The notes under the pieces: model-generated
Seen by the model: only the letters and a program-made list of their open reading frames with translations
Told to the model about the DNA's origin: nothing
Database searches by the model: none
Program-made: the position numbers and the translations under genes
In this document: piece by piece, positions 4,026 through 36,721 of the stretch
How positions within the stretch are numbered: position 1 is the stretch's first letter
Layout: every line of letters begins with the position of its first letter
IMG/VR virus record: IMGVR_UViG_3300025325_000052
Coordinates: 1 to 42,495 of that record
DNA: 42,495 nucleotides
Origin: a virus
Direction: 5' to 3' (one strand)

Positions 4026-4793
4026 ATGCCTTATCAACTTTGGATCGCTGACGTAGCACGAGCAGCAGGACTGAAGGTTGCCGAGCAACCTGGGTGGAAG
4101 ACAAGAGGATCCAGTGTTTTCAATCCTAAAGCAGTTCTCGCTCATCACACAGCAATAGACGATGATGCCATTTCTGTCCGGGTGGTTACTAAAGGGCGCC
4201 CTGATTTACCAGGGCCTCTCTCCCAATTTGTGTTAGGCAAAGACGGCACAGTTTATGTAATCGCAGCTGGCAAGGCCAACCATACAGGAGAGGGCTCTTG
4301 GGCAGGGCTGTCTGGGAACCTCTATTTCTTCGGTATTGAAGCGGTGAACAAGGGCGACGGCACACCGTGGCCGCAAGTGCAGTTGGATGCGTATTACAAG
4401 CTAGCGGCGGCTCTTGTGAAGAGCCTGGGTGTTGGTGCTGATAAGGTAGCAAGTCACGCCGAATATGCAACGCCCCCAGGGAGGAAGATAGATCCCAAGG
4501 GGATCGATATGTCAGATTTCCGGGCTAAAGTTGCTACTCTACTGGAGGCAAAGCCGATGTACGATCCGCCCTTCAATATTCCGGGTGGTGTGGCCGCACA
4601 CCTGAAGGCCCCAGGAGGTGGGGTCTGGGTGCTAGGGTATGAGGGTCACATCTACGCCTTCGATTCCCAACACAAAGGTCAACCTGCAGGTCAGAGCTAC
4701 TGGGGCACCCGGAAGGCTGCTAGACTAGAGCCGTTTGGAGAGGGGTACACCGTTGTAGCGGTGGGCTCAGGCGAAAGGTACGACTACGGATGA
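4026..4793 (+). CDS. endolysin, N-acetylmuramoyl-L-alanine amidase (Amidase_2 fold)
   Basis: 255 residues. An Amidase_2/PGRP-type catalytic domain spans about residues 10-175. Likely zinc ligands are H40 or H41 (LAHHTA), H144 (ASHAEY) and D156 (KIDP), with the family's GKDGTVYVIA and FGIEAVN strands between. The enzyme cleaves the bond between N-acetylmuramic acid and L-alanine of peptidoglycan at the end of infection. Residues 180-255 form a separate beta-rich module with WVLGYEGHIYAFD, likely a cell-wall-binding domain. No signal peptide is visible, so it depends on a holin; the next gene overlaps its stop by four bases and encodes a holin-like protein. Confidence 0.88.
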   Translation: MPYQLWIADVARAAGLKVAEQPGWKTRGSSVFNPKAVLAHHTAIDDDAISVRVVTKGRPDLPGPLSQFVLGKDGTVYVIAAGKANHTGEGSWAGLSGNLYFFGIEAVNKGDGTPWPQVQLDAYYKLAAALVKSLGVGADKVASHAEYATPPGRKIDPKGIDMSDFRAKVATLLEAKPMYDPPFNIPGGVAAHLKAPGGGVWVLGYEGHIYAFDSQHKGQPAGQSYWGTRKAARLEPFGEGYTVVAVGSGERYDYG

Positions 4794-5252: not shown

Positions 5253-6271
5253 CTGAGTCGCTGGAAAATTATGCTGAAGTCGATGCCTTGCGGGCAGCGA
5301 ACCAGAGGTTACAGCAGCAGCTAAGGAAGGCAACTGCGAAGACAGACGATTTGGTCGAAGCTGTCACTAAGGCTGCTTATGATGCTGCTTTGATTGCAGG
5401 CCCGCTACCTTTAACTCCTGTTCCATCAAAAGATAATAGGCGCAAGGAAGAAGTTGCTTTATGGGATTTAGGTGACTGGCAGGGAGCTAAACTTACCTCG
5501 ACTTATAATTCGCAAGTAATGCGTGATCGAGTCATGCAGTTCTGTACTAAAGCCCAACGAATTACGATGATTCAACGAGCAGATCATCCAGTAAAACGTT
5601 GTGTTATTATTTTTGGAGGGGATCAAGTTGAGGGTTTATTTAATTTTCCTCAGCAACCCTTTGAGGTTGATTCTTCACTTTTTGAACAATACGTCAATGT
5701 TAGCCGACTTCTAGTTGATGTCGTTCGTTTTGCTCTTTCAGTATATGACAAAGTAACTGTTGTTAGTGAATGGGGCAACCACGGAAGAATTGGTTCAAAA
5801 CGTTCGGCTGTACCTCGATCCGACAATGTTGACCGTATGTGCTATGAGCTTGCTCGTCAACTTTTGGCTGGAGAATGGCGTTTAACCTGGCAAGATTGCC
5901 CAGAAGATATTCAGCGCTTGGAAGTTGGAAGCTATCGAGCCCTTGTCATTCATGGGGATGAATTTGGTAGGAATGGCTTCGCTTCTCGGAGCACAATCGT
6001 CCAGCATGTGAATCGCTGGCGCTCTGGTGCCTATCGGGTTGATGGTCTGGCATGGGAATTTCGGGACTGCTACGTTCACCATTACCATCTCCATGCCGAG
6101 GATCCTCTGGCCAATGGGGAAGGTGCAGTTTATTGGACTGGATCAACGGAATCAGACAATCGCTACGCACAAAACGCTCTATCGTCTGCTGGTATCCCAT
6201 CTCAGAGGCTCCACTTCGTTGATCCGGTCAAAGGACGCGTGACCTCGGCCTATAAAATCTGGCTCGACTGA
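5249..6271 (+). CDS. calcineurin-like metallophosphoesterase (SbcD/Mre11-like)
   Basis: 340 residues. The N-terminal ~40 residues are a coiled coil (LRAANQRLQQQLRKA). Metallophosphoesterase motifs follow in order: DLGDWQGAKL (usually D-x-H), GGDQVEG (GDxx[DE]), EWGNHGRIG (GNH[DE]), VIHGDE, and VHHYHLHAE (GHxH-like). The first motif has Q and the third G where H and D are usual, so the metal site may be altered. Members cut DNA ends or hydrolyse phosphodiesters; a role in phage DNA processing is inferred. It overlaps the next gene (stop TGA and ATG share bases at 6269-6273). Confidence 0.7.
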   Translation: MTESLENYAEVDALRAANQRLQQQLRKATAKTDDLVEAVTKAAYDAALIAGPLPLTPVPSKDNRRKEEVALWDLGDWQGAKLTSTYNSQVMRDRVMQFCTKAQRITMIQRADHPVKRCVIIFGGDQVEGLFNFPQQPFEVDSSLFEQYVNVSRLLVDVVRFALSVYDKVTVVSEWGNHGRIGSKRSAVPRSDNVDRMCYELARQLLAGEWRLTWQDCPEDIQRLEVGSYRALVIHGDEFGRNGFASRSTIVQHVNRWRSGAYRVDGLAWEFRDCYVHHYHLHAEDPLANGEGAVYWTGSTESDNRYAQNALSSAGIPSQRLHFVDPVKGRVTSAYKIWLD

Positions 6272-6807
6272 TGCCTCCTGGGATTTATAAACGCAAACCT
6301 CGTCCTGCTAGACCAATTGAATGGCTTAAGGAGTGCATTAAGTGTGAAGTAATGAAAACGCTTAATGATTACTATCCTGACCCGCGCAAATTCGATCATG
6401 TTCATTCGGTTTGCAAAGAATGTACGAAGGCAGATCGAAAACAAAGATATGAAGAAGATCCAGCGAAATATAATGCTCAAAGTTCGGCTTACGCAGCTGA
6501 TCCTATTAATCGGCAAAAAATGAAAGCTCATCGTTATGGGATAACATTTGAAGAGCTTACTACTTTAATTGAAAAACAAAATAATTCTTGTGCTGCTTGT
6601 TTTACTTCATTTGAAGATATCCCTGATAGAAATATCCATATTGACCATGATCATGAATGTTGCCCCAGCAATAAGGGATGTAGAAAATGTATACGAGGCA
6701 TTTTATGTTGGAATTGTAATGCTGCTCTTGGGATGTTAAAAGATGATATCATCCGGGTTCATGCCATAGGCAAATATCTGATGACTAGACAACGTGCTAT
6801 AATATAA
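6271..6807 (+). CDS. HNH endonuclease, recombination endonuclease VII family
   Basis: 178 residues. The Endonuclease VII signature is clear: an N-terminal zinc ribbon-like CIKC...C-K-E-C, then YGITFEEL, CAACF, IHIDHDHECC, and RGILCWNCNAALGML. The HIDHDH and CWNCN elements form the beta-beta-alpha-metal active site and zinc site. Family members resolve branched DNA or act as free-standing homing-type nucleases. Codons are strongly A/T-rich compared with flanking genes, a sign of separate acquisition. ATG overlaps the stop of the metallophosphoesterase gene. Confidence 0.85.
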   Translation: MPPGIYKRKPRPARPIEWLKECIKCEVMKTLNDYYPDPRKFDHVHSVCKECTKADRKQRYEEDPAKYNAQSSAYAADPINRQKMKAHRYGITFEELTTLIEKQNNSCAACFTSFEDIPDRNIHIDHDHECCPSNKGCRKCIRGILCWNCNAALGMLKDDIIRVHAIGKYLMTRQRAII

Positions 6808-6866: not shown

Positions 6867-7193
6867 ATGGCTTTGGAAACCTTGTTTTTCCAGAACAACA
6901 CAGGTACAGTTACTCAGTTCTTAGGTGAACGTGTAGCTTATGTCAGTAGTGAATTGCCATCGAAAGAGCGGCACACTGAGTTCAGTTATTTTATCAGTGA
7001 GCATGGGGAGCATATTCTCCAAGGTGTTGGGCGAACAAAAGTAGAAGGCGAACGGGATAGATATTGGTGTATTGTCTCCGAGGATCCGGGGGATCTTCTG
7101 CAAGGAATTTTAGGCACTGATGTGAGCAGATTAGCCAAACGTCTTTTAGTCGAAGTTATTACCTATCTTGCTGATTGTGTGTGCGACGAATGA
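6867..7193 (+). CDS. hypothetical protein
   Basis: 108 residues with a good ribosome binding site (GGAAGGAAGGAAAG upstream of ATG 6867). Mixed alpha/beta, with a helical C-terminal segment (RLAKRLLVEVITYLADCV). No recognised motif. It overlaps the following endonuclease gene by four bases (ATGA), so it is co-translated with it. Confidence 0.55.
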   Translation: MALETLFFQNNTGTVTQFLGERVAYVSSELPSKERHTEFSYFISEHGEHILQGVGRTKVEGERDRYWCIVSEDPGDLLQGILGTDVSRLAKRLLVEVITYLADCVCDE

Positions 7194-7747
7194 CTGACTC
7201 TACCTGCTGTAACTGCGGCCACACAGACCCCCATTCCGGGGGCGGGATCGGTGTATGCCTGTCTAAGGGCTGCGGCTGTGATGGTCAGGGGCCGGAAGAG
7301 GTCTGGAAGAAAAGTTGTTCTCGTTGTGGTGAATGGAAAATTCGTGAAGAATTTTATACTAGACTAGAACGTGGCGGTAATGCCGATAGTTATTGTAAAT
7401 CTTGTCGTACAGAAATAAGGCGCGAAACTCGTGAAAGGAATCCGGAACCCGCAATAAAGGCGAAAGAGACTTTCAATCAACGAAAGTCCCATGAAAGAAA
7501 AGAAATTAAAAAAGACCTTCTGCTTCTACAAGGCGGAAGATGTGCTCTTTGCGGAACTATTCTGACTCCAGAAACTGGAGAATTGGACCATGATCATACT
7601 TGTTGTGCTAAAGGATGTATACCTTGTGTGGACTGTCGTAGATCAGTCTTGTGTCATCTTTGCAACCATGGTTTAGGATTCTTTAAGGAAGATATCAATC
7701 TTCTTATTAAAGCTGTTCATTATTTAGATGTCTATGGAAACAGATGA
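7190..7747 (+). CDS. HNH endonuclease, recombination endonuclease VII family (second copy)
   Basis: 185 residues from ATG 7190, chosen because it overlaps the upstream stop (ATGA); an earlier in-frame start at 7175 would lie inside the previous gene. The N-terminal ~40 residues hold an extra Cys-rich module (CCNCGHTDPH, GCGCDG), then CSRCGEWK...CKSC, RCALCG, ELDHDHTCC and SVLCHLCNHGLGFF, the endonuclease VII core. The core from residue ~45 on resembles the 6271-6807 protein in layout, suggesting two related insertions two genes apart. Confidence 0.83.
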   Translation: MTDSTCCNCGHTDPHSGGGIGVCLSKGCGCDGQGPEEVWKKSCSRCGEWKIREEFYTRLERGGNADSYCKSCRTEIRRETRERNPEPAIKAKETFNQRKSHERKEIKKDLLLLQGGRCALCGTILTPETGELDHDHTCCAKGCIPCVDCRRSVLCHLCNHGLGFFKEDINLLIKAVHYLDVYGNR

Positions 7748-11890: not shown

Positions 11891-12352
11891 TCACCTCCTC
11901 CATCTTTTCTTAGACTCCTGACGAAGTCTACGTTTGCAAATGCGACATTCTCTGTGTCCATCTGGACGGATATAAACATTATCAGTTATAAGTGAATGTC
12001 CCCATTTACACTCTGATTTAGGAGGTGTCCTACTAATCAAAATATTAGGATTAGGTTTATAATTTCCAACCCTATTTTGGAGAGGGGGCACAGAACGAAG
12101 ATGATCAGGGCGCACACAATGGCGTACTCGGCAAATATGATCTATTTCTTCTCCATTAGGGATAGAGCCTACAAATAATTGATATAAAATACGATGAGCT
12201 GTTGTTCCTGTCCATTTTCCATTTTTATCCCAAAAAGTTATCATACCATAGCCATCTGGACTTATTGTTCCTGTCCAGGGCCAACATCCATCTCCCACTA
12301 AAAATTTTTTGCTTATTCGGTCCAGTAAGTAGTCACTCATTTGTTCGCTCAC
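11891..12352 (-). CDS. HNH endonuclease (HNH_3 type)
   Basis: 153 residues, GTG start at 12352 (an ATG lies four codons on). Features: GCWPWTGTISPDGYG, TAHRILYQLFVG, then the HNH core EIDHICRVRHCVRPDHLRSV, followed by a C-terminal Cys2-Cys2 module (CKWGHS...CRICKRR). The same plan occurs in the 31202 and 40849 genes. Likely a free-standing homing nuclease. A/T-rich relative to the upstream G/C-rich genes. Confidence 0.83.
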   Translation of the reverse strand: MSEQMSDYLLDRISKKFLVGDGCWPWTGTISPDGYGMITFWDKNGKWTGTTAHRILYQLFVGSIPNGEEIDHICRVRHCVRPDHLRSVPPLQNRVGNYKPNPNILISRTPPKSECKWGHSLITDNVYIRPDGHRECRICKRRLRQESKKRWRR

Positions 12353-12580: not shown

Positions 12581-12962
12581 GGCGGGCCTCCTTCCAGGCA
12601 GCGAGGACCGGTCCCACACAAACACCACATCGACAGTTATGTCTCCGTAATGCCTCAGCCAGGCGGTCAGCGAGAAGCCGGTTTGCTTCATACAACTCAA
12701 ACCAGTGCATGGCAGTCTTTCGGTTCCGCTCCACCTCGGCCTCGGCCCGCTCCACCTCCGTCTCGGCGGCGACTCTTTTGACACAGTGATGGCGGGCTTC
12801 GGCCTCAGCCAGCACGGCCCGCTGCTCTAGTGTCTCCCAGTAGCGGTCGCAGGTCGCCCGGTGCGGATCTAGATGCGGGGCCGCTGCCTCGACGACGAGT
12901 CTTGCTTGTTCCTCAGGAATGCCTGCTTCCATGGCTGCTTGGATTGCCTGTTCTAGTTCCAT
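12534..12962 (-). CDS. coiled-coil hypothetical protein
   Basis: 142 residues. The N-terminus MELEQAIQAAMEAGIPEEQA looks like a small helical (UBA-like) segment. Residues ~45-110 are a continuous charged coiled coil (AETEVERAEAEVERNRK). A CRCGVC pair lies near residue 112. The N-terminus resembles that of the adjacent HNH gene (MSLEKAIEAATEALP), discussed separately. G/C-rich. Confidence 0.55.
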   Translation of the reverse strand: MELEQAIQAAMEAGIPEEQARLVVEAAAPHLDPHRATCDRYWETLEQRAVLAEAEARHHCVKRVAAETEVERAEAEVERNRKTAMHWFELYEANRLLADRLAEALRRHNCRCGVCVGPVLAAWKEARHESQEQLAIEAETQG

Positions 12963-13417
12963 CGCTTACCATTCCTGACTCGTTGGATTGTTGTTGGATG
13001 AACCCCATAGATCTGAGCTAAAACACGGCTACTTTCAGGACGGCTCTTTATCTCTTTTACTTGGATAGCAGTAAGCCTTGCTCGCCCATTATCCTCGCCT
13101 CGGGCTCTCTGTGCCTCTGTGGGCTGCTGAGGAAGCACGTAACGATGACGACCCTTAGCTTTGGCATCATTGAGGTTGTCGCTTTGCGTACCAAGGAAGA
13201 GATGCTCCAATCGGATGCAAGGCGGATTGTCACAGTGATGACAAACGAGCATGTCTTCGGGTATCGGACCATGCGTCCTGATCCAGGCGACCCGGTGAGC
13301 GGCCTGGCGGCGTCCCTCAAACATGACTCGTCGGTACCCACCTCCGCCACGGCTACCAGCACCTTCAATGCAAGGCAGTGCCTCAGTTGCTGCTTCGATA
13401 GCCTTTTCAAGACTCAT
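12953..13417 (-). CDS. HNH endonuclease with C-terminal helix-turn-helix
   Basis: 154 residues. HNH_3-type core AAHRVAWIRTHGPIPEDM, LVCHHCDNPPCIRLEHLFLG, TQSDNLNDAKAKGRH, then a C-terminal DNA-binding HTH (LTAIQVKEIKSR, RVLAQIYGVHPTTIQRVRNG). The first 14 residues do not look like HNH sequence and resemble the N-terminus of the neighbouring coiled-coil protein. The usual G-C-W-x-W motif is changed to L-P-C-I-E-G. ATG overlaps the cupin gene's stop (TGATG). Confidence 0.82.
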   Translation of the reverse strand: MSLEKAIEAATEALPCIEGAGSRGGGGYRRVMFEGRRQAAHRVAWIRTHGPIPEDMLVCHHCDNPPCIRLEHLFLGTQSDNLNDAKAKGRHRYVLPQQPTEAQRARGEDNGRARLTAIQVKEIKSRPESSRVLAQIYGVHPTTIQRVRNGKRWN

Positions 13418-16838: not shown

Positions 16839-17027
16839 TCATACTGTGGCCCCGGTTTCACCCTTAATTTCCTCCATAATGGCATAGATTAGCTTGCACC
16901 CGGAACATATAGAGTCCTTTCGGGCTGTGTGGGTAGGCAACTCAGCAACGGCTTGTACGAGCAACTTCTTGAGACGTTCTATTTGTACATCTCGTATATC
17001 CACGGAGTTCGATGGGAACCACATCAC
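16839..17027 (-). CDS. 62-residue helical protein with CxxC
   Basis: ATG 17027 (ATGATG). Amphipathic helix (DVQIERLKKLLVQAVAELPT) then SICSGCKLIYAIMEEI. Could bind zinc as a dimer. Function unknown. Confidence 0.5.
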   Translation of the reverse strand: MMWFPSNSVDIRDVQIERLKKLLVQAVAELPTHTARKDSICSGCKLIYAIMEEIKGETGATV

Positions 17028-17215
17028 ACACCTGGTACATCAACCAGAGGCTCAGGCACAGGTTCCCAGGTCTGCAAGGAGGTTACCCAAACGATGGTGT
17101 CCCCGCAGACCCAACAGCGGTCCAACCCGGTCCAGCATACGTCGCAAGCCTCGCAGCGATAAAAGCCGAACCAGTCACCCACGGCATAACTTCCTTCGTC
17201 CTCGTTGGTGAGCAT
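17024..17215 (-). CDS. 63-residue rubredoxin-like zinc ribbon
   Basis: Start ATG 17215 preferred over an earlier one at 17263 deeper inside the sigma factor gene. YRCEACDVCW and DRCWVCGD form two CxxC knuckles about 9 residues apart, a rubredoxin-like zinc ribbon. The 3' end overlaps the next gene (TGATG). Function unknown. Confidence 0.55.
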   Translation of the reverse strand: MLTNEDEGSYAVGDWFGFYRCEACDVCWTGLDRCWVCGDTIVWVTSLQTWEPVPEPLVDVPGV

Positions 17216-17723
17216 TATCAACGGACTTCGGGTTTCGTCCCCAGCGAGTTGCAATTTCGTCATATGAAAATCCAGCCATTTGACCCATCAGAGCTTCCAT
17301 CTCCAAATCTGTTAGGCCTGCCTGTCTCCATTCACAGATAAGCTCTTCTATCGCCATAATTTCTTCGACAATTGCCTCGGGCTCGTCGCCACCAGCTATA
17401 TCCATCCACGGTTCCAAGAATACGGCGTTCCGCAGTGCTTGCTGGCGAAGACGGGTACTCGACTTCACGAAGGTGAGTATCTGGCGACGAACCACTAGTT
17501 TGAAAAAATGAATGAAGCTTGCCTTAGCAGGATCCCACGTACGTACTGCGGACAGAAACCCTATCCTTGCCTCTTGCCAGATGTCCTCGATGGTAGCTCC
17601 GATAACGTAGTAGTCTCGTATCACAACGTAGAGCAGCGGTGTGTATTGTTTCAGTAGTTGTTCAAAAGCAATCTCATCTCCTGTGCGATACCGTTGCACA
17701 AGATCAAGGTCAGTAGTCGTCAT
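17175..17723 (-). CDS. sigma-70 family RNA polymerase sigma factor
   Basis: 182 residues. Region 2: FEQLLKQYTPLLYVVIRDYY, TIEDIWQEARIGFLSAVRTW, then SFIHFFKLVVRRQILTFVK. Region 4 near the C-terminus: LTDLEMEALMGQMAGFSYDE, IATRWGRNPKSVDNAHQRGR. No region 1 or 3, so it belongs to the short alternative (SigH/ECF-like) sigma factors. It should redirect host RNA polymerase to phage promoters; which promoters is unknown. Confidence 0.85.
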   Translation of the reverse strand: MTTTDLDLVQRYRTGDEIAFEQLLKQYTPLLYVVIRDYYVIGATIEDIWQEARIGFLSAVRTWDPAKASFIHFFKLVVRRQILTFVKSSTRLRQQALRNAVFLEPWMDIAGGDEPEAIVEEIMAIEELICEWRQAGLTDLEMEALMGQMAGFSYDEIATRWGRNPKSVDNAHQRGRRKLCRG

Positions 17724-17808
17724 CTTCGTTGTAGTCCCCTATCCCAGCTAGGTACCCAAATATATACCCAATCAATCCGCAACCTGCTGCGATAAGGAAG
17801 TTTTTCAT
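17710..17808 (-). CDS. 32-residue membrane peptide
   Basis: ATG 17808 to TGA 17710, overlapping the sigma factor start. One glycine-rich membrane span (FLIAAGCGLIGYIFGYLAG) with an acidic C-terminus (DYNEDDDY). Lies between the tRNA and sigma factor. Could be a small membrane protein or chance ORF. Confidence 0.4.
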   Translation of the reverse strand: MKNFLIAAGCGLIGYIFGYLAGIGDYNEDDDY

Positions 17809-17813
17809 AATTG

Positions 17814-17887
17814 TGGGCCCGGCAGGGATCGAACCTGCGACCTTCCCGTTATGAGCGGGGCGCTCTAACCAACTGAGCTACAGGCCC
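17814..17887 (-). tRNA. tRNA with CAU anticodon (Met or lysidine-type Ile)
   Basis: The full cloverleaf folds on the minus strand: acceptor GGGCCTG/CGGGCCC, D-arm GCTC...GAGC, anticodon stem CCCCG/CGGGA with loop CTCATAA, variable AGGTC, T-arm GCAGG...CCTGC with TTCGATC loop, discriminator A. The anticodon is CAU. The first anticodon-stem pair is C-A (mismatch). No CCA is encoded. The body resembles bacterial tRNA-Ile; a CAU anticodon could be elongator Met or Ile2 read as AUA after lysidine modification. Confidence 0.9.
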
Positions 17888-17966
17888 GGTACTAGGGGGT
17901 ACTTTCCCAGAGAACACACTGGAGTACTCATGACACATGCCTGTATCTGCCCCTAGAACTTGGTTG

Positions 17967-18668
17967 CTAGGCCTTGTGAGCCGTCTTCATCCAGAGCCGC
18001 AGACAAAGACCGCCGAAGACCGCCAAGCTACCGACAAGGAACAGCCAAGCTGCGCCGCTACCCGTCCTTGGCAGAGTCTGCAAAGGGACAGGAGTTACGG
18101 CAGGCGGGGTGTTTGCTGGCGGGCAAGGCCCTGGGTCTGTCTTGAAGGTGAACCCGCCGCCGTCTGAGCAGACGGTGTGTGCCGCCTCCCCAGGAGCGCC
18201 AGTCTCGCCCGTGTCTCCTCTAGGCCCAGCGGATCCCGCAGGGCCCGTAGGCCCAGCGGATCCCGTTGCACCATCAGTGCCATTCAATCCCTCCTCGCCC
18301 TGAGGACCAGCCGGTCCAGTAGGCCCAGCGGGCCCCTGCGGACCCTCGGGACCAGCATTACCTTGAGGTCCAACAGGTCCGGTAGATCCAAACGAGATAG
18401 AGCAACGGAACTGGTTCGCATCGCCACTTCCTTCGGTCAGTGTATTGGGGACGAACACCTCATCATTATCACCAGGAGGAAGTGAGGTCCAATCACCCCA
18501 AGACTGGTTGGAAAGAACCACGAAGAGCGGCTCACCAGACTCCTCATCGAAGCCCTGGAAATCACAGATGTCATACTTGTTGTGCTGGTTATTGCCTGTA
18601 GCACCAGCAACAGTTGTAGGAGCAAGAACCGCCAGCATGACGGCCAAGCTCAGGATCAACTTCCTCAT
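17967..18668 (-). CDS. secreted collagen-like surface protein with LPxTG sorting signal
   Basis: 233 residues. Residues 1-23 are a signal peptide (KK-type start [20 protein letters not shown], cleavage near AGA). Residues ~24-93 form a small globular domain with two cysteines. Residues ~94-162 are about 23 uninterrupted collagen Gly-X-Y triplets ([16 protein letters not shown] and similar). Then a Cys-containing segment, a Pro-rich spacer, and a complete sortase signal: LPRTG at 199-203, a hydrophobic span ([18 protein letters not shown]) and a basic tail. Sortase would anchor it to the peptidoglycan of a Gram-positive host (established knowledge). In a phage it would be displayed on the infected cell surface. 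Confidence 0.85.
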
Positions 18669-18674
18669 TATTTC

Positions 18675-18872
18675 CTAACCTTCCTGTTTCGGTTTGCGCC
18701 AGGGCGCCAAGTGTACATACAATCCTGCCATCAAGGCAAGAGTTATTATTGGGTGTTCCCGAGCATAGTCCGTTACGAATTTTCCTCGTTTCCTTCGCTT
18801 AGTAATTAAATCCCAAGCGACGATACCTCCACCGATCCAGAGCCAAAACTCACCCTCGGTCGGGGGCTTCAC
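18675..18872 (-). CDS. small membrane protein
   Basis: 65 residues, GTG 18872 behind AAGGAGGATGAGAC. Two hydrophobic spans (EFWLWIGGGIVAWDLI, then PIITLALMAGLYVHLAPW) separated by a basic loop (TKRRKRGK). This type of small FWLW...AWD membrane protein recurs in actinophages. Function unknown. Confidence 0.6.
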   Translation of the reverse strand: MKPPTEGEFWLWIGGGIVAWDLITKRRKRGKFVTDYAREHPIITLALMAGLYVHLAPWRKPKQEG

Positions 18873-18897
18873 GTCTCATCCTCCTTCTCTCTGTAGC

Positions 18898-19020
18898 TCA
18901 TTCCATACAGCCTTCGGCGGTCATCTCCACTAAATAGAGTGGCTTTGGTAGTCTTGCCCGTAAGAGATTATTGCATCCTTCTATTTCGCAAAGATGTTCG
19001 TTTTTAGTCAGAGATTTCAC
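18898..19020 (-). CDS. 40-residue ORF following WhiB
   Basis: GTG 19020 overlaps the WhiB stop region; product 40 residues with C-E-I-E-G-C-N-N and a later Cys. Weak evidence beyond operon-style overlap. Function unknown. Confidence 0.35.
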   Translation of the reverse strand: MKSLTKNEHLCEIEGCNNLLRARLPKPLYLVEMTAEGCME

Positions 19021-19309
19021 GCCTCATTCGTCTCCTTTCTCTTTCGCTTTTATTACCCCAATAGCCGATTGTCTCCTTAGCTTTTAAAGCATGATCAAGG
19101 CAATCCGGTTGCACCGGACATTCAGAGCAGATTGCTCTTGCCTCCTCGGTGCTTCCTCCCCTGGATGGGAAGAAGGCATCGGGATTGGGATAGTCCCGAC
19201 AAGCTGCCTGGACTACCCAATCCGCATCTATGAATAGCTTGGTGATGTTTGGAACGGTTTCGTCATAGGCTCGCTGGTGCGGACCGTACGCTCCCTTACG
19301 TCTTGTCAT
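19004..19309 (-). CDS. WhiB-family transcriptional regulator
   Basis: 101 residues. Four conserved cysteines C37, C61, C64, C70 (AACRDYPNPDAFFP; ICSECPVQPDCLDHAL) ligate a [4Fe-4S] cluster in this family. The turn motif is GYWG at 82-85, followed by the basic DNA-binding tail (KSERERRRMRR). WhiB-like (Wbl) proteins are restricted to Actinobacteria and their phages, making this the best host marker. Phage WhiB proteins can dampen host whiB expression or remodel sigma factor use (known for a mycobacteriophage example); effect here inferred. Confidence 0.92.
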   Translation of the reverse strand: MTRRKGAYGPHQRAYDETVPNITKLFIDADWVVQAACRDYPNPDAFFPSRGGSTEEARAICSECPVQPDCLDHALKAKETIGYWGNKSERERRRMRREISD

Positions 19310-19311
19310 GC

Positions 19312-19872
19312 TCAGAATGGCGGCGGAGGAACGGCTGGGGTCTCAGTAGCGGCAACCGGAGCAGGGGCAGTAGAGACCACGGGGGCCGCCGTAGCGGCAG
19401 TGGCGAAAGGGTCTGCGGCGAGGGTAGGAAGACCAATGGCAGCTTCTGGGGATACAGGATTGATGCGTTCTATCTTGTTATTTTGGTATTCAGTATCCAC
19501 CTTGACCTTAATCTGAGCAACCTGTCCAAGCAGCGCCCCAGAGATATGCTTCATAGCCGTCTCAGGATCAACAGTAGACAATGAGGCAAAGAACTCCTGG
19601 GTGATGCCGAGAGCGCTCATCTGACGGTAAAAAATACTCAAGGCGTTGGGATTGTCGGTAGTAAGGGTAAAATAATTCCATAAGTTTTTAAAGCCAGCCT
19701 TAGGACCAACTACTACTTCCCACCTTGTTTTAATCTGCGGCTTACCTGTAGAAGAGGTCTTGTATTCTGATTCGATAACCTTAGCGGTATATGTATTAGC
19801 TTCCAGAACCTCAAAAGTTGCACCAGACTCAGCGGCCTTCTTCATGAGATCACCAAACGTGCTACTTGTCAC
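19312..19872 (-). CDS. single-stranded DNA-binding-like protein (DUF669 type)
   Basis: 186 residues. The N-terminal ~120 residues fit the phage DUF669/SSB-like family (YTAKVIESEYKTSSTGKPQI, KTRWEVVVGPKAGFKNLWNY). The C-terminus is a disordered Ala/Pro-rich tail ending PPPPF, in place of the usual acidic SSB tip but retaining the terminal Phe. It is directly downstream of the Sak4-like recombinase, the usual pairing. It likely coats ssDNA for the recombinase. Confidence 0.65.
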   Translation of the reverse strand: MTSSTFGDLMKKAAESGATFEVLEANTYTAKVIESEYKTSSTGKPQIKTRWEVVVGPKAGFKNLWNYFTLTTDNPNALSIFYRQMSALGITQEFFASLSTVDPETAMKHISGALLGQVAQIKVKVDTEYQNNKIERINPVSPEAAIGLPTLAADPFATAATAAPVVSTAPAPVAATETPAVPPPPF

Positions 19873-19876
19873 GTAA

Positions 19877-21604
19877 TTACCTGCTTTCTTGTTCAGGGTT
19901 ACAAATCATGTTGACCATGTCATCTAGTCGAGGGTTAGTGATGATCGTAGGGAAGACACCTGATCTATCACCTGCCTCATATTGAGCGTGGGGCTTAGTT
20001 AATAGGAAATTTGTGAACTCTCCCTCATCGCTAATCTGTGCCTTAAGGAAGCCTATCGTATCGATGTAGTAAGGAAGCGCAGTTGCTAGCTGACCTTGAA
20101 CATATGGGTACCATTTGCCGTCTTGGTTCTGTTTTGTCATCGCCGTTAGAATCACTGCATCCAGCGGCACTGTCGGGTGGGTTAGTAAATCTCTATACTG
20201 CCTAACAAGTTGGGCAACTTTTCGATAAACTTCCCCCCACTGCTGCAGCTTTAACTGCTCATCGCCAGCTATTGCATCAATACAACGTTGCTGGGCCTCA
20301 GAGATTGAATCGATGATGACCGAACGAAATGAGTGTTTTCCGGCTGCCAACCAAGCATATGCCTGACTCAGAGAACTGAAATCTCTTACGTAGGTCACGC
20401 ACGTTTCCCAAGAACCGTCATACTCCGGGGGAGGCACAGTTGGTACCCAAGAGATTTTCTTAGATTTCAAAAACCGTGAATTGCCTTCTGAATCTAAAAG
20501 AAGACGAGGTCCCGGTGCTGAATCAGCAAGAGTTGTGTTATGAGTGACTATAAATTTATCCACGACAAATAAACCATCAAAATTAGCAACTGCAATACAA
20601 CGAGTTGGTTGCTGGGCGGATGGCGCCACCGAAGCAATCCTCCTAAGAGGATGACGGATTCTATTCCGATCTTCGTAGTAATGACGACGAGACCCTCGGA
20701 AGGCCACCATATCAATAGGCAAACGTAGAGCTGTTCTGTAAGCTCGTTTACCCATCTTGCGTTCTTTCTTATATGTATAGGTAGGCGATCTATCTGTTAT
20801 TTTCTTTGTGCAGCCTCCTACTGACCAGATCAATTCTCTAAAATCTTTGCACAGCTGGAGGCTAGTCGTCACAAAATTCAGCATTTTCCCGTCATTAAAC
20901 CCATCAGAATCCATAATGCCTTGAAGAAGGGCAACCCGGTCTGCAATAGGGGCTTTAAGGTATATTTTCGGAATGAATTTCTCGTGTGAGTACAGCCCCC
21001 AAAGATCTAGGGATCTCAAAGCTTCGGTGAGTGGATTTTTTTCATTCTTCTTGTTTACAAAAAAGAATTCAATACCAGTATGACGGACTGTTGTTCCTTC
21101 TGGTGCTTCAATACAAATTTCAGGGTCTGCGCAAGTAAGCCTAGGGGTTGAACTTCTAAATGATCCATCACCAAGCATTAGCCCCAGAAGATATGGCTCA
21201 ACCGGCAACGGATTGTCTGATTTAATTCCCTGCCAAGCGACAGTTGGTATGTATAGGGGCTCACCAACTGGTCCAGTAGATACACCGATCTGACGATAAA
21301 TATCTTCAGTAGATAGAATGGCCCATCGATCAGTGTTGCGCCTGCGAGTCCTCCATAAGTGACTAGAATCAGTGATGATGGATTCACCATCATCAAATTC
21401 AATCCGATAACATTCTTGGGGGCCTCGTTCAAAAATAGCTAAAACAATTGTTGGATGTCCGTCCGATCCGATAACCTCATCACCTATTGATAGCGAACCA
21501 AAATCTTGCCACCCGGTCGGAGTAAGAGTAGGTGTTGAATAAGGCAGCCCCTTCCCGCTTTTTGAGGCTCCATGTAGGAGGAATGAAATTCCACATTCGC
21601 TCAT
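19877..21604 (-). CDS. Sak4-like RecA-family recombinase containing an intein
   Basis: 575 residues from ATG 21604 (overlaps the previous stop; an earlier in-frame start at 21655 is less likely). The extein is about 237 residues. The Walker A is GASKSGK joined to TTLADSAPG, then LLLDSEGNSRF, SVIIDSISEAQQ (Walker B-like) and ILTAMTKQNQDGKWYPYVQG, the Sak4/AAA_24 pattern. An intein of 338 residues splits the P-loop between K18 and the following Thr. After splicing the protein would be a single-strand annealing/exchange recombinase acting with the SSB-like partner. Without splicing the ATPase site is disrupted, so activity depends on the intein. Confidence 0.82.
   Translation of the reverse strand: MSECGISFLLHGASKSGKGLPYSTPTLTPTGWQDFGSLSIGDEVIGSDGHPTIVLAIFERGPQECYRIEFDDGESIITDSSHLWRTRRRNTDRWAILSTEDIYRQIGVSTGPVGEPLYIPTVAWQGIKSDNPLPVEPYLLGLMLGDGSFRSSTPRLTCADPEICIEAPEGTTVRHTGIEFFFVNKKNEKNPLTEALRSLDLWGLYSHEKFIPKIYLKAPIADRVALLQGIMDSDGFNDGKMLNFVTTSLQLCKDFRELIWSVGGCTKKITDRSPTYTYKKERKMGKRAYRTALRLPIDMVAFRGSRRHYYEDRNRIRHPLRRIASVAPSAQQPTRCIAVANFDGLFVVDKFIVTHNTTLADSAPGPRLLLDSEGNSRFLKSKKISWVPTVPPPEYDGSWETCVTYVRDFSSLSQAYAWLAAGKHSFRSVIIDSISEAQQRCIDAIAGDEQLKLQQWGEVYRKVAQLVRQYRDLLTHPTVPLDAVILTAMTKQNQDGKWYPYVQGQLATALPYYIDTIGFLKAQISDEGEFTNFLLTKPHAQYEAGDRSGVFPTIITNPRLDDMVNMICNPEQESR
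20537..21550 (-). mobile_element. intein with LAGLIDADG homing endonuclease, class 3 features
   Basis: 338 residues. Block A is GLPYSTPTLTPTGW, with Gly in place of the usual Cys/Ser at position 1. Block B is GESIITDSSHLW (T-x-x-H, followed by W66). Two LAGLIDADG motifs, LLGLMLGDGS (121-130) and LLQGIMDSDGF (208-218), keep their acidic residues. Block F is RCIAVANFDGLFVV (C318) and block G is FIVTHN, followed by Thr. Gly1 with W66, C318 and T336 matches the WCT signature of class 3 inteins, which splice without an N-terminal nucleophile (family knowledge). Confidence 0.85.
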
Positions 21605-21807
21605 ACTTCCTCTTTCCATAACATTCGCACTGCATCGTGGTCTGGTGACGGGCAATCGAGGATGTAGCCCGCCTCCACCACGTTGAGGTCTTTCATCATA
21701 ACCTGTCCGGTGTGCCCGTCAACCATCTGACAAAGCTGGCTGTGCTTGACTGTGGGCATGACGGCTGTGAGGGCATCTAAGTCAGCTTGGGTTATACCGA
21801 AGATCAT
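21601..21807 (-). CDS. hypothetical protein upstream of the recombinase
   Basis: 68 residues, ATG 21807. Helical N-terminus (TQADLDALTAVMPTVKHSQL), then QMVDGHTGQVMMKDLNVVEA and an acidic end. Coupled to the recombinase by ATGA overlap. Function unknown; could modulate it. Confidence 0.55.
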   Translation of the reverse strand: MIFGITQADLDALTAVMPTVKHSQLCQMVDGHTGQVMMKDLNVVEAGYILDCPSPDHDAVRMLWKEEV

Positions 21808-21816
21808 TTTTCCCTT

Positions 21817-22815
21817 TCAAATGCTGTCGAGATCAGATCTAGATTCTGCATATCTTTCGTATGGATTAGATACCCTGAAGTTATTTGTGAGAAACTCCTC
21901 AGCGTAGTCATCCATATCAAACATCGGGCATGCGGTGCGAAAGTCGCAACCCCAAGAGCACCGAGAACTGGGTCGAGGGTAACAAACAGCCCTGTGGTCT
22001 GTGTTCCGGTTTAACTCGTCTCTGGCTTGGATGATATCAGAGATCGTCCCGGTCAGCCTTATGTAGAAGTTCCTTAGCATTTTATCTGAAACTTCGACGC
22101 TTTCCCTCGCATAAAAAGGTGGTGTTGCTTTAGCAGTGCGAAGTGTTTTTCTGAGAAGATTCCACATTGCATATGACGGCATCTTATCTGGATTATTAAG
22201 CCGATAAAGAAGAGCATAAGTGAAAAGCTGCTCGTTCAGATCAAGCAACGGATCAATGAGACTCTGACACGACTTGTGGTCTAGGAAAAAGAAACGTTCT
22301 AATTTGTCAATACCAATAGCGTCTCGCTTACCCAGGATAGTTACATCTGTCCCACTAATATGTAAAGTATGCTCAATTTCAGATTCAGCTTCGATGATCT
22401 CAAAGTCTGAATCAATTCCTGTTTCTTCTATCCAATCAAAGTAGCCCTCTAACATAGTGCGAGCCATCTTATGATCTTTATCCACAGCTGTTAGATCATT
22501 AGGAGTATTCTTTCTAACTTCTTCATAAATTGATGTAAGGACACCTAAAGCTAACCCCTTAGAACCGCTAGGAGAATAATACGAAGCTAGTGAAGAGTGA
22601 ATATTAGTTCCTAGAGCGAGGGCACCAGTAGTTTTTTCTGGTGCTTTTAACCCTCTAAAATATTGGAGCCACCAGCGTCTGCGACAATCTTTCCAAGTTT
22701 GAATTTCACTATTACTGATTTGTAATGTAGGGACTGATTTAACTAGCTTCATTTCCTTTTCCCATAAATTACTGGGGCTACCCGTAAATGGTATTATCTG
22801 CCCCATTTCAGTCAT
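21817..22815 (-). CDS. PD-(D/E)XK nuclease, Cas4/RecB-like with probable Fe-S cluster
   Basis: 332 residues from ATG 22815 (SD GGGAGG). QISNSEIQTWKDCRRRWWLQ (first cluster Cys), LGTNIHSSLASYY (motif I His), ILGKRDAIGIDK (catalytic D), and FFLDHKSCQS (D-x-K) are followed by a Gln-containing helix. The C-terminal cysteines CSWGCDFRTAC complete a Cas4/AddB-type four-cysteine 4Fe-4S site. In phages such nucleases process DNA ends next to Sak4-type recombinases. It lies in the same operon as Sak4 and SSB-like genes. Confidence 0.75.
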   Translation of the reverse strand: MTEMGQIIPFTGSPSNLWEKEMKLVKSVPTLQISNSEIQTWKDCRRRWWLQYFRGLKAPEKTTGALALGTNIHSSLASYYSPSGSKGLALGVLTSIYEEVRKNTPNDLTAVDKDHKMARTMLEGYFDWIEETGIDSDFEIIEAESEIEHTLHISGTDVTILGKRDAIGIDKLERFFFLDHKSCQSLIDPLLDLNEQLFTYALLYRLNNPDKMPSYAMWNLLRKTLRTAKATPPFYARESVEVSDKMLRNFYIRLTGTISDIIQARDELNRNTDHRAVCYPRPSSRCSWGCDFRTACPMFDMDDYAEEFLTNNFRVSNPYERYAESRSDLDSI

Positions 22816-23008
22816 CAAATCCTCCCATAAGCTGTTTCCTCATCAAAACCCAATGGAACTCAAGGGTCATATGAGTAGCTGCATGCTCTTGGAATCCGGC
22901 TTCCATCAGCTTATTGTGATAGCCCGCCACGATTGCCACGAGCATGTCCAAGTTCTTCGTCAACTCCTCAAATTCTTCAGGAGTAATGAGGGGATCTTCT
23001 TCACTCAT
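22808..23008 (-). CDS. hypothetical small helical protein
   Basis: 66 residues. Acidic N-terminus (SEEDPLITPEEFEELTKNLD) and helix LVAIVAGYHNKLMEAGFQEH. A short protein of this type is common near replication genes in actinophages. Overlaps the nuclease start and abuts the upstream gene. Confidence 0.55.
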   Translation of the reverse strand: MSEEDPLITPEEFEELTKNLDMLVAIVAGYHNKLMEAGFQEHAATHMTLEFHWVLMRKQLMGGFDD

Positions 23009-23688: not shown

Positions 23689-24153
23689 TCATATATGTTT
23701 CCAGTTTCTCCCAGTGACAATCATTGAAATTAATGCCCTACTTACATCAAACATTTCAGCTAAATCCTTTTGAAAAAATGTGCCAGTTGCATACAACTTT
23801 CGTATTGCTAAGACTTCCTCATCCGAAAGTTTGGACATACCGTGATCCGTTCCGACCCGTGCAGATTTAAATCGACCTTTATTTAGAGCATCTCTACAAT
23901 TATCGGCTGGAGTGCCCAAGAAAAGATGATCGGGGCGAAAACAAGGCGGATTGTCACAATGATGGAGAACCCATAGACCTTCTGGAATTGGTCCATTAAT
24001 AGCTTCCCAAACTAATCTATGAACTGATTGTAATTTTCCATTAAATGAAACTCGCCCATATCCAAATGGGACTTTATATCCAGTCCATTCCCAGCAACCA
24101 GCATAGGGCCCACGAAAATTGCTTGGGCGATCTTCTAATTTTTTACCTGGCAT
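23689..24153 (-). CDS. HNH endonuclease with C-terminal helix-turn-helix
   Basis: 154 residues from ATG 24153, overlapping the helicase stop by 11 bases; an upstream ATG at 24189 adds 12 residues. GCWEWTGYKVPFGYGRVSF, SVHRLVWEAINGPIPEG, VLHHCDNPPCFRPDHLFLG, TPADNCRDALNKGRF, then HTH KLSDEEVLAIRKLYATGTF, DVSRALISMIVTGRNW. This is the complete HNH plus HTH layout of homing-type nucleases. A/T-rich. Confidence 0.85.
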   Translation of the reverse strand: MPGKKLEDRPSNFRGPYAGCWEWTGYKVPFGYGRVSFNGKLQSVHRLVWEAINGPIPEGLWVLHHCDNPPCFRPDHLFLGTPADNCRDALNKGRFKSARVGTDHGMSKLSDEEVLAIRKLYATGTFFQKDLAEMFDVSRALISMIVTGRNWKHI

Positions 24154-25861
24154 ATAATAACCTTTTAAGAGCGACTTTATCTTTGACAACTTCTTCTAAC
24201 ATTTCTGCTTTTCCAGCAAGAATCTCAAGTTGAGCAGATTCTATAGAATTTTCAGTCACATAGTCAATAACTACAACTGACTCGTGATGTTCGCTACCAA
24301 TTCTATGAATGCGTCCGATAGCCTGCTGCTGGTCCACGTTTGAAAATGAACGCTGAAGAAAAATTCCTATGCGGGCTCTATTTAATGTAACTCCCACGCC
24401 TCCTGCGCTGATGACCACTAAACAAACATCTACCTTGGCTTCTTGGAAAGAATCAATTTGATTTTGTCTGACATCTGTTGTTTGACCGCCCTTGATAATC
24501 GAGTAAGAGATGTCCGCTTTTTCAAGGCGGTTAGCCGCCATCTCAATAAGCTGCCGGGACTGGGCAAAGACCACCACCGGCTCGTTAAAGTCCGCCAAGT
24601 CTTCCATAAGAGCATCAAGCTTGCAAGAGGGATCGGACAATCTTACTCCATCCTCAGTGAGTTCTGCATAGGACGAAGCAAATTGTACCATGCGTGTGAG
24701 CTGAGCCAAAGCCGATGAGGCAATCACCATTGAGCCGTCGTCAGTAGTGGCCCACAAACTCTCCGCCATCGTGTTATATGCTTTGGCTTGCTTGGGGTTC
24801 ATCTGCACGTCACGGCGCTCATAGATGATGGGAGGCAACTGGGGGAGGATAGCTTCTTTCACGCAACGTCGGAAGCGGGGATGGAAGATATCTTCAAATT
24901 CGGTCTGCATCTCTGGTCTGATTCCAAAGACATCCAATCCACCAAATGGATTGAATCCTGTCAAACAGTAGCGGGAAATGAATTGAGTTTTGGAGGGCCA
25001 CTCTTGAGGATTTAAAAAATGCAAGATAGGAAAAAGTGTATCGGGGGCATTAGTTAGGGGGGTGCCAGTTAAAGCCCATCTAAATCGCACTGAAGGGCCA
25101 TGTCCTACAGCCCACACTGCTCTTGTCCATTTAGTACGGGGGGAAGACAATTTGTGACTCTCGTCGCTTATTACAATTTTCCATGGAATAAAGTTCAATT
25201 CCTTCGGAGTCTTCTCCGCATCTGTTAAAGCAATGCTTCCATATGGAGCGAGCCTTGAGTGAAGACGGACGCTCTCGTAGTTGATTATGACGACCCCAGG
25301 GTTGTCTCCTGCTTCAGCGAGAATCTTCTGGCGCTTTGGGGCTGTTCCATCAACAACATAGACAGGGATGCCCGGCCACCACTTCTCCACCTCCCTCGCC
25401 CATGAGCGTTTACAACTATTCGGGGCAATTACTAGCATAGGAAGTTCATTGACTGCTTTAGCTGCAGCGATTACTTGAATTGTCTTGCCTGATCCCATCT
25501 CATCGGCGCAGAGTGCTTGCTTTGCGGTAATGAGGAAAAGTGCCCCAACTTCTTGAAAGTTGTACAACCCGTGTGGGAGGCCCCCCGGATCTTGGATTGA
25601 CAACTCGTTGCGGAGAGCCAAGGAGGGAGCCACCCGGAGGTCGAGTTCACTCTTCGCCCATTTCCAAAGTTCCGGTCCTATTTCCAACCGGTCTCCGAAC
25701 ACGGCTCGGAGTTGGCGACAAGCGGACCATGAGAGGGGGGTGTGCCATTTCTTAACCTCAGAATTCCATCTACTACCGGGGATTGATTTAACGCCCTCTC
25801 GGTCTTGCATTCCAGACTCTATGAAAATTCTTTGGCCTTGAATTTCGACCTTTACCTGCAT
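24143..25861 (-). CDS. SNF2-family DNA helicase/translocase
   Basis: 572 residues. The N-terminal ~85 residues (RIFIESGMQDREGVKSIPGS, KWHTPLSWSACRQL) resemble the HARP-like domain found before phage SNF2 helicases. Walker A is DEMGSGKTIQVI (near 118-129). The DExH box reads VISDESHKL (near 230). ALTGTPLTNAPDTLF is motif III. Helicase C motifs include VVVFAQSRQLIEM, VVISAGGVGVTLN and QQAIGRIHRIGSEH. Likely remodels replication forks or recombination intermediates. Lies in the same operon as the recombination genes. Confidence 0.88.
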   Translation of the reverse strand: MQVKVEIQGQRIFIESGMQDREGVKSIPGSRWNSEVKKWHTPLSWSACRQLRAVFGDRLEIGPELWKWAKSELDLRVAPSLALRNELSIQDPGGLPHGLYNFQEVGALFLITAKQALCADEMGSGKTIQVIAAAKAVNELPMLVIAPNSCKRSWAREVEKWWPGIPVYVVDGTAPKRQKILAEAGDNPGVVIINYESVRLHSRLAPYGSIALTDAEKTPKELNFIPWKIVISDESHKLSSPRTKWTRAVWAVGHGPSVRFRWALTGTPLTNAPDTLFPILHFLNPQEWPSKTQFISRYCLTGFNPFGGLDVFGIRPEMQTEFEDIFHPRFRRCVKEAILPQLPPIIYERRDVQMNPKQAKAYNTMAESLWATTDDGSMVIASSALAQLTRMVQFASSYAELTEDGVRLSDPSCKLDALMEDLADFNEPVVVFAQSRQLIEMAANRLEKADISYSIIKGGQTTDVRQNQIDSFQEAKVDVCLVVISAGGVGVTLNRARIGIFLQRSFSNVDQQQAIGRIHRIGSEHHESVVVIDYVTENSIESAQLEILAGKAEMLEEVVKDKVALKRLLYAR

Positions 25862-31201: not shown

Positions 31202-31684
31202 ATGTTGGAGTTAGGATACCATAGATTCATGACTCCACTGGAAAGATTTTTGCAAAAATATCAGATTGATGAGAACGGATGTTGGCTCTGGACAGGATCA
31301 AAAAGTGTCTGGGGGTATGGCAAAGTCAAAATTGAAGGAAAAATGGAGACAGCTCATCGTATGGCTTGGCGATTTTTCAAAGGAGATATCCCAGATGGGT
31401 TACTGGTTTTACACAAATGTGATATTCGGCATTGTGTGAATCCTGATCATCTATGGCTTGGTACATACAAAGACAACATGGCTGATTGTGTCGTCAAAGG
31501 AAGATTCTCATCAGGTGAGCGCCACTACAAACGAGCCAGTACCCACTGCAAAAACGGGCATATATTCGATGAATCAAATACATGGTGGTACCGCAATGAA
31601 AGAAAATGTCGTATCTGTCGAAGGAATCAAAGAAGAGCCTGGAGGGCTCGTCGTCGCCAAGAAGCTGGTGGAGTGGGGGGCTAA
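31202..31684 (+). CDS. HNH endonuclease (HNH_3 type with Cys4 tail)
   Basis: 160 residues from ATG 31202, or 151 from ATG 31229. GCWLWTGSKSVWGYGKVKI, TAHRMAWRFFKGDIPDG, VLHKCDIRHCVNPDHLWLG, TYKDNMADCVVKGRF, then CKNGHIFDESNTWWY and CRICRRNQ. Same plan as the genes at 11891 and 40849. Its 3' end overlaps the prim-pol start by about 89 bases, so it sits against the replication genes as a free-standing insertion. Confidence 0.83.
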   Translation: MLELGYHRFMTPLERFLQKYQIDENGCWLWTGSKSVWGYGKVKIEGKMETAHRMAWRFFKGDIPDGLLVLHKCDIRHCVNPDHLWLGTYKDNMADCVVKGRFSSGERHYKRASTHCKNGHIFDESNTWWYRNERKCRICRRNQRRAWRARRRQEAGGVGG

Positions 31685-32513
31685 GGTTGTTCCGGCGTTT
31701 TGCAGTCGAGATGGTGAAAAAGTTCCTCTGGCCGGAAACTGGGTCGTTAACGCTACAAAGGATGTCGATCAACTTGAACGATGGTGGGCAGAAAGACCTT
31801 GGTGTTGGCCTGGAATTGTTGGTGGAGTGGGTTCATTCATCTTGTTTGATGTTGATGGATCCGAAGGAATCGAATGGTTTCGAGCATTCTGTGCTCGTGA
31901 GGGCTGGCCTGGGGGGTCATGCACTTACTCAACACCGGGACGATCCGGGGGGCTGCATTCGGTGTTCAGGTGGCCTAAATGGGGATTGGGCACAGACTTT
32001 CGTCAGGCTAAGGTTTGTGGAGAAGGATGGGAAGTCCAACTTAGAGGAAACGGTCATTTTACCCTCTTTTGTGGGGCTAGACGGCCAGACTGTCCAGGGC
32101 GAAATTATGAGTTGATCGAAGAACCAGGAGAGGGTGGGCCAATTGAGTTGCCTGAGAAATTCGGGCGTGCCTTCTTGCGAGAGAGTGTTGTGTCGGTTGG
32201 ACCGGCTGGTTCGTTCGGTATTGGGGAGTTGGTGGAGATTTCTGAAGAGGATGCCTGGAGTGGTGCGCCGTATGCAGATGGGCGAAAGAATGTGGTTGCT
32301 GGTCTTGCTTGGTATAACGCTATTCGGGGCGCCTCTGTGGCTTCGGTTGTTGCTTTATGCGAGCGTTTTGGAGCTGAGTGTTGTGTTCCTGCGCTCTCGG
32401 CGGAAACGTGCAGGAAGAAGGCGGAGTATGCAGTAGAGCGGGCTGAACGGTACCGGATGAAGGCTGCTGCTGAGGCTGAACGGGTTGTCGGGCATTTAAG
32501 GTGGGATAAATGA
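31596..32513 (+). CDS. prim-pol type DNA primase/polymerase (N-terminal bifunctional)
   Basis: 305 residues from ATG 31596; upstream in-frame codons belong to the HNH overlap. AKKLVEWGAKVVPAF, QLERWWAERP, SFILFDVDGSEGIEWF (catalytic D-x-D), STPGRSGGLHSVFRWP (S-x-G and H) and GNGHFTLFCGAR match the archaeo-eukaryotic prim-pol fold of phages. The C-terminus is helical. It pairs with the D5-type helicase downstream to form the replication initiation pair. Start uncertain by a few codons. Confidence 0.75.
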   Translation: MKENVVSVEGIKEEPGGLVVAKKLVEWGAKVVPAFCSRDGEKVPLAGNWVVNATKDVDQLERWWAERPWCWPGIVGGVGSFILFDVDGSEGIEWFRAFCAREGWPGGSCTYSTPGRSGGLHSVFRWPKWGLGTDFRQAKVCGEGWEVQLRGNGHFTLFCGARRPDCPGRNYELIEEPGEGGPIELPEKFGRAFLRESVVSVGPAGSFGIGELVEISEEDAWSGAPYADGRKNVVAGLAWYNAIRGASVASVVALCERFGAECCVPALSAETCRKKAEYAVERAERYRMKAAAEAERVVGHLRWDK

Positions 32514-36043: not shown

Positions 36044-36721
36044 ATGAGCTACACCGAGGATTTAGAACCCACACACCAGAGCCCGGACGAGGAGGAATCG
36101 AATCTAGGCCGCTGGCTACTCATGGGGCTCCTTCTCGCTAATCTAGCTTCAGATCTCAACCCGGATGATTGGGACGGCACAACCTTCGCCCAGTTCCGAC
36201 GCCAACTTGAAGTGGTTTATGGTCCCACCATACGAGATTGGCTCCGCACCGAATACATCCCTTGGCTGGAGGCTAGGGGCATCCCAGTTGGCGTCTCAGG
36301 AACACCTGCCAGTATTGATCGAGCTATAGAGGCTGCTTTCGCCAACACCCGTGACCTGCACCGTTCAATGCAGTCATCCTTTTCAGCTGGAGAGTTTTCT
36401 CGCTGGGGTGGAGCCACTCATCAGGGGCTCGTACTTAGGGATGTGGCTAGGATAGCGGGTGATAATTTAGAGCGAGGTGTCGCTACCAGATTAGAAGAGG
36501 CCGGGTTCTTTACCGGGCAACGGCGTTGGGAAACGAGCGGACCAGGCTCCAGACATGCTATATTAAATGGGAGCGTCACCTCCAATGGAAGGTGGCAGTT
36601 TAAAGGCGGTGTAGTTAATGGACCAAGACAAAACCCTCAAGATCCAAGAGAGTGGAGCGGCTGTTCTTGTCGAGTTTCTTACGCTTGGGTCGATTCTCGT
36701 GGAAATACTGGATGGTTATAA
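36044..36721 (+). CDS. MuF-like head morphogenesis / minor capsid protein
   Basis: 225 residues from ATG 36044. Helical N-terminal 140 residues (FAQFRRQLEVVYGPTIRDWL, HQGLVLRDVARIAGDNLER), then RRWETSGPGSRHAILNGSV, QFKGGVVNGPRQNPQDP and WSGCSCRVSY near the C-terminus, the fold end seen in MuF-type minor capsid proteins (H-x-x-L-N-G ... C-x-C). Normally adjacent to the portal gene; here it stands alone among accessory genes. Coupled to the HNH gene by TAATG. Confidence 0.6.
   Translation: MSYTEDLEPTHQSPDEEESNLGRWLLMGLLLANLASDLNPDDWDGTTFAQFRRQLEVVYGPTIRDWLRTEYIPWLEARGIPVGVSGTPASIDRAIEAAFANTRDLHRSMQSSFSAGEFSRWGGATHQGLVLRDVARIAGDNLERGVATRLEEAGFFTGQRRWETSGPGSRHAILNGSVTSNGRWQFKGGVVNGPRQNPQDPREWSGCSCRVSYAWVDSRGNTGWL

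Follow-up and report, generated by a model that had tools for sequence, protein, structure and literature searches.

A phage gene on the minus strand of a 42,495-nt stretch of viral DNA (IMG/VR record IMGVR_UViG_3300025325_000052, positions 1 to 42,495; hereafter the window) encodes a collagen-like protein with the layout of a sortase-anchored surface protein. Judged from its sequence, this protein is probably displayed on the infected cell. Superinfection exclusion is our leading guess at the use of that display, and a tentative one. Taken whole, the account that best explains the observations, a collagen stalk displayed by the host with exclusion as its leading use, stands in our view evenly poised between right and wrong.

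Layout of the collagen-like protein

The gene specifies 233 residues in an intact reading frame, and the plus strand over the same interval is interrupted by stops (Table 1). An earlier note on this DNA had described here a signal peptide, about 23 Gly-X-Y triplets, a Pro spacer and LPRTG followed by a membrane span and a basic tail. Every element was confirmed and the coordinates given were exact; the gene lies on the minus strand. Shuffled sequences rarely match this layout. The 23 triplets run unbroken, with Pro at the X position in 11 of them, and the longest run in 5,000 protein shuffles was 7. Shuffling the last 60 residues gave LPxTG with a span and a basic tail in 78 of 200,000 trials, and shuffling the whole protein did so in 7 of 200,000. 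Two hydrophobic segments are present, at about residues 1-24 and 203-225; the signal peptide was called by eye.

Pfam Collagen (PF01391) scored 41.2 bits on the protein, above its cut-off of 27.2. The LPXTG model TIGR01167 scored 14.1 bits on the annotated protein, below its cut-off of 15.9, and 17.8 bits, above it, in a six-frame search of the window, so the HMM evidence for the anchor is borderline when taken alone. Assignment to the Scl proteins was rejected: the NCBIfam SclA and SclB models matched the repeat only, at 46.5 and 41.4 bits, far below their cut-offs of 325 and 400.

The N-terminal domain matched no known binding domain in Pfam or the PDB, where nothing was better than E 0.3, and an AlphaFold model of residues 26-93 from single-sequence input was uninformative (pLDDT 46). 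Searches by tblastn against phages gave no credible homologue, whether for the whole protein, for its anchor or for its N-terminal part, nor did the plasmids and genome contigs searched, and no diverged relative was found by which to gauge conservation of the N-terminal domain. An identical protein is encoded on a sister contig (IMGVR_UViG_3300025313_000035), which is 100% identical over window positions 17000-19800 and may not be an independent sample.

Table 1. Features of the collagen-like gene and of the genes discussed with it (window coordinates).
Feature	Position	Strand	Basis
Helicase	24143-25861	-	
Exonuclease	21817-22818	-	
AAA_24 protein with LAGLIDADG-like insert	19877-21655	-	Pfam
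DUF669 protein	19312-19872	-	Pfam
WhiB-family regulator	19004-19309	-	PF02467, E=1.1e-19
Small membrane protein, 65 aa, upstream	18675-18872	-	PF24202 (DUF7427), E=1e-4, 22.8 bits, under 27-bit cut-off
Likely ribosome-binding site (AGGAAGG / AGGAAA), overlapping end of upstream gene	18671-18685	-	sequence; inference
Predicted exported collagen-like LPXTG-type surface protein, whole gene	17967-18668	-	translation; PF01391; 23 triplets
Predicted signal peptide, residues 1-23 (MRK, hydrophobic core, AGA/TG)	18600-18668	-	by eye; hydrophobic windows up to 2.41
N-terminal non-collagen domain, residues 24-93, acidic, Cys35 and Cys89	18390-18599	-	sequence
Collagen-like stalk, residues 94-162, 23 Gly-X-Y triplets	18183-18389	-	triplet count; PF01391
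Linker, residues 163-198, Cys167 and Cys182, Pro-rich wall spacer	18075-18182	-	sequence
Sorting motif LPRTG, residues 199-203	18060-18074	-	sequence; TIGR01167
C-terminal membrane span, residues 206-223	18000-18053	-	hydrophobicity up to 2.35
Basic C-terminal tail	17970-17999	-	sequence
tRNA, CAT anticodon, directly downstream	17813-17887	-	ARAGORN; Rfam tRNA
Sigma-70-family factor	17175-17723	-	PF04542 and PF08281
Minor tail protein gene	left end of window		
Amidase	4026-4793		Pfam

Position of the gene and nature of the host

On the minus strand the order of genes is helicase, exonuclease, AAA_24, DUF669, WhiB, DUF7427-like, collagen gene, tRNA and sigma factor. The collagen gene thus lies within a replication and regulation set, away from the head and tail genes and outside a structural module. 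Beyond the position of the window's right end, the sister contig carries large plus-strand ORFs that are terminase-, portal-, protease- and capsid-like, identities read from the ORF sequences without a family-library search. Only 6 bases separate the collagen gene from the end of the small membrane protein gene upstream, and the likely ribosome-binding site overlaps that end, which suggests coupled translation. Counts of promoters and terminators near the collagen gene showed no excess over shuffles, and PADLOC gave no match. The idea that DUF7427 regularly accompanies the anchored gene was rejected, with 0 matches in 21 other records.

Phage collagen-like proteins are mostly taken to be virion components, and a fibre or tail-tip part would agree with the PHROGs matches of the triplet stretch, which fall mainly in tail-fibre families. 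Those matches centre on the repeat, however, which is compositionally generic. The signal peptide, the anchor and the position of the gene fit poorly with a virion part. DSL-LC01, the nearest relative by helicase, carries two collagen-type ORFs (starting MAVLKYFDS and MAVRRLGLA) with Gly-X-Y repeats like those of the window protein, and these have neither an N-terminal signal nor a C-terminal span or anchor. We consider a virion component highly improbable. The earlier note had read the layout as that of a host surface protein and not of a virion protein, a reading supported by the architecture, by the location of the gene on the strand that carries the replication genes, and by the contrast with the unanchored collagens of DSL-LC01. 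Its mention of a lysogenic cell found no support, as neither integrase nor serine recombinase was detected in the recovered, incomplete sequence.

The nearest relatives by helicase or polymerase are Actinomycetia, Micrococcus, Microbacterium, Arthrobacter and Gordonia phages. Together with the WhiB gene, these actinobacterial phages point to an actinobacterium as the host. A search with the helicase profile gave no locus among genome contigs, and hence no prophage by which to name the host. Neither PF00589 integrase nor PF00239 resolvase was found in the window, the sister contig, a second phage contig described below (G002) or four cultured phage records. None of the ten records searched contained a sortase gene, so a host enzyme would be needed for anchoring. 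Because the window and the sister contig are incomplete, these absences of integrase, recombinase and sortase are provisional.

Several other features of the window were observed. The AAA_24 recombination-type ATPase seems to be interrupted in its N-terminal part by an intein-like insert, in which the LAGLIDADG match is weak (16.7 bits, below cut-off). The CAT-anticodon tRNA could be tRNA-Ile2, which reads ATA, instead of tRNA-Met; ATA makes up 28 of the 184 Ile codons in eleven sampled genes. The window is heavily loaded with genes of the mobile endonuclease type: over 42 kb, nine ORFs match HNH or endonuclease VII families (6271-6807, 7175-7747, 11891-12352, 12953-13417, 23689-24189, 31202-31684, 36652-37383, 40849-41277 and 41374-41913). 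HNH_3 accounts for seven of these places, in one case below cut-off, and Endonuclease_7 for two. In 31202-32513 a Prim-Pol domain ORF overlaps an HNH ORF, and a primase/helicase ORF follows (32548-33987); the primase gene may be split around a homing endonuclease.

A second collagen with a predicted anchor among phage contigs

A full anchor was found in 2 collagen-like ORFs among at least 256 distinct complete ones, that of the window and that of contig G002. The survey drew on 506 loci (4.87 Mb), mainly viral contigs plus phage records, and retained complete frames, 60 residues or longer, in which ten G-X-Y triplets included at least three with Pro. It was fed by four pattern scans, which favoured LPXTG-like sequence downstream of the repeat; the anchored cases therefore number at least two among the matches listed, in a sample and not a census. 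An anchored collagen-like phage protein is rare but not unique, and the window protein is by its predicted layout atypical of phage collagens.

Contig G002 (127.5 kb) belongs to an unrelated phage with portal, major head, terminase, tape-measure and primase genes. Its anchored ORF (locus L184, 1554-2588, 344 aa) shows, behind an internal start, a stretch resembling a signal peptide (MRKIIIAVIAAFGLLMLGTISAQA), followed by a short collagen region, an Excalibur-like stretch, LPKTG and a terminal span. The LPKTG scored above the TIGR01167 cut-off, and the Excalibur-like stretch reached 20.1 of 22 bits, just under the Pfam cut-off. A second collagen ORF on the same contig (L347 9759-10454) has an N-terminal hydrophobic stretch and lies less than 1 kb from an amidase-like ORF; its product is perhaps a membrane-tethered collagen near lysis genes.

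This second ORF counts in favour of another reading of the window protein, that it is exported yet unsorted, its span retaining it in the membrane, and acts at the envelope late in infection. The small membrane protein gene immediately upstream in the window counts likewise. In the window protein, however, LPxTG, the Pro spacer and the basic tail are all present, and its gene does not adjoin the phage's own amidase gene. Membrane retention of this kind is in our judgement improbable, and we return to anchoring by sortase.

LAxTG-ended proteins in cultured actinophages

The search among actinophages for the same domain order, which the earlier note had proposed, yielded one more protein with collagen and LPXTG, that of G002, and otherwise a separate set with LAxTG ends. 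A sorting-signal scan of the loci detected a protein of Micrococcus phage Kurnik that ends in LAQTG, a span and a basic tail. Six homologues were found by tblastn and their ends read: Zooman 245, A3Wally 278, Big4 260, FuzzBuster 74, Pumpernickel 243 and Magritte 249. In all six, LA(A/Q/T)TG is followed at the C-terminus by a hydrophobic span and then a basic stretch, bringing the set to seven proteins from Micrococcus (Kurnik) and Microbacterium phages. They are 458-877 aa long, are labelled 'membrane protein' or 'hypothetical protein' in the records, and form a family separate from the window protein, with the C-terminal layout alone in common. An N-terminal signal-peptide-like stretch is visible in six of the seven. 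Pumpernickel 243 as annotated starts MVTDTGVHTAP with no visible signal peptide; its start may be misplaced, or the protein may not be exported by a signal peptide.

The Kurnik gene adjoins replication genes, and by helicase or polymerase the nearest relatives of the window phage include Kurnik, Pumpernickel, A3Wally, Zooman and Big4. Pfam Collagen did not match the Kurnik protein; PF01391 matched the Kurnik record once, below threshold, and on the strand opposite to that gene. In the A3Wally (L328 2107-4311) and Big4 (L332 2065-4320) proteins an Excalibur-like calcium-binding stretch (DGDKDGIACE) precedes the anchor. Such a stretch is common to these Microbacterium phage proteins (by eye) and the G002 collagen protein (sub-threshold Pfam).

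An anchor profile was built from nine C-termini, the window's included. Run on 42 records, it found the window, G002 and four phages that had contributed sequences to the profile. The 36 others, with DSL-LC01, Arthrobacter phage Mimi and Gordonia phage Mareelih among them, gave no match; of the other metagenomic contigs with a related helicase, 0 of the 33 searched matched. The independent TIGR01167 model scored above cut-off in the window, G002, Pumpernickel and FuzzBuster. The failure to match any of the 33 contigs would suit a host surface-protein gene captured by the phage and without a selected role in it, as would the GC content of the gene, 60% where the window has 49%. The Gly, Pro and Ala codons of a collagen raise GC by themselves, however, and the intact reading frame and the recurrence of sorting-signal proteins in related cultured phages argue against such a passenger, which we think rather improbable.

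Probable display of the protein and its possible role

Export of the protein, its trimerisation, its attachment to the wall, the timing of its expression and its function are inferred from the sequence, as follows. The gene would be an accessory (moron-type) gene, probably expressed together with the replication genes. Its precursor would be exported by host Sec, and a host sortase would cleave LPRTG between Thr and Gly and join the protein to peptidoglycan. The 23-triplet stretches of three chains would coil together as a short, stiff stalk and hold the acidic 70-aa N-terminal domain, at its tip, clear of the infected cell's wall. With the surface altered in this way, a second phage might adsorb or inject less well.

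We favour exclusion on two grounds: the gene keeps company with replication genes, and a protein anchored in the wall can block phage DNA entry, as the host-coded surface protein CwpV of C. difficile does (PMC4737114). The phage-coded exclusion proteins Sie2009 and T4 Imm are membrane proteins that act on DNA entry. The window protein, also phage-coded, has a predicted envelope location, and its likeness to Sie2009, T4 Imm and their host analogue CwpV lies in the proposed use only. Several points count against our account. A phage without detected lysogeny genes would gain less from exclusion than a prophage. LPRTG would have to be accepted by a host sortase, and the class E sortases of soil and freshwater actinobacteria prefer LAXTG (PMC5148588). 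The sub-cut-off TIGR01167 score of the annotated protein, the failure to find a diverged relative and the missing signal peptide of Pumpernickel 243 as annotated weigh on the same side.

The same display on the infected cell could instead serve adhesion or aggregation, through which progeny would meet fresh hosts or clumps would resist grazing. Bacterial LPXTG collagen-like proteins of such a layout are named adhesins (Scl models), and prophage-encoded SasX promotes intercellular aggregation (PMC10232760). Against this, the collagen part is short and the N-terminal domain matches no known binding domain; we hold adhesion or aggregation to be an unlikely use, and prefer superinfection exclusion, which itself falls short of even odds.

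Comparison with known proteins

To our knowledge SasX is not collagen-like. Its resemblance to the window protein is that a phage-borne gene specifies a protein anchored to the host wall, in that case from a PhiSPbeta-like S. aureus prophage (PMC10232760); SasX belongs to a firmicute prophage, whereas the window phage has no integrase or recombinase that we could find. Scl1/SclA and Scl2/SclB share with the window protein the order of N-terminal non-collagen domain, Gly-X-Y stalk and C-terminal wall anchor (PMC8968730). Unlike the LPXTG-anchored Scl and PclA proteins of Gram-positive bacteria, the window protein is phage-encoded, has just 23 triplets and carries an unmatched N-terminal domain. 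The collagen-like fibres of E. coli prophages have Gly-X-Y repeats in common with it (PMC3368898). The LAxTG-ended actinophage proteins resemble it in their sorting-signal-like C-terminus, with class E-type LAxTG in place of LPRTG.

Implications

LPXTG-anchored bacterial collagens are known, as is a prophage-borne wall-anchored protein. In the open-access literature searched we found no description of an anchored collagen in a phage, of the LAxTG proteins in cultured actinophages, or of a change to the infected cell surface made through a host sortase; subscription journals may differ. Where Gly-X-Y repeats occur in a phage gene, the ends of the protein should be checked before a tail fibre is annotated. 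It is conceivable, if somewhat short of probable, that actinobacterial phages without detected lysogeny genes repeatedly use host sortases to re-cover the wall of the dying cell, and, within the same judgement, that such remodelling, collagen-stalked here and LAxTG-ended elsewhere, lies hidden under the labels of membrane or hypothetical protein. Testable examples exist in cultured phages, namely Kurnik, and Zooman and its relatives on Microbacterium foliorum. If this reading is true, phages lysing actinobacteria would borrow the host sortase to alter the surface of the infected cell.
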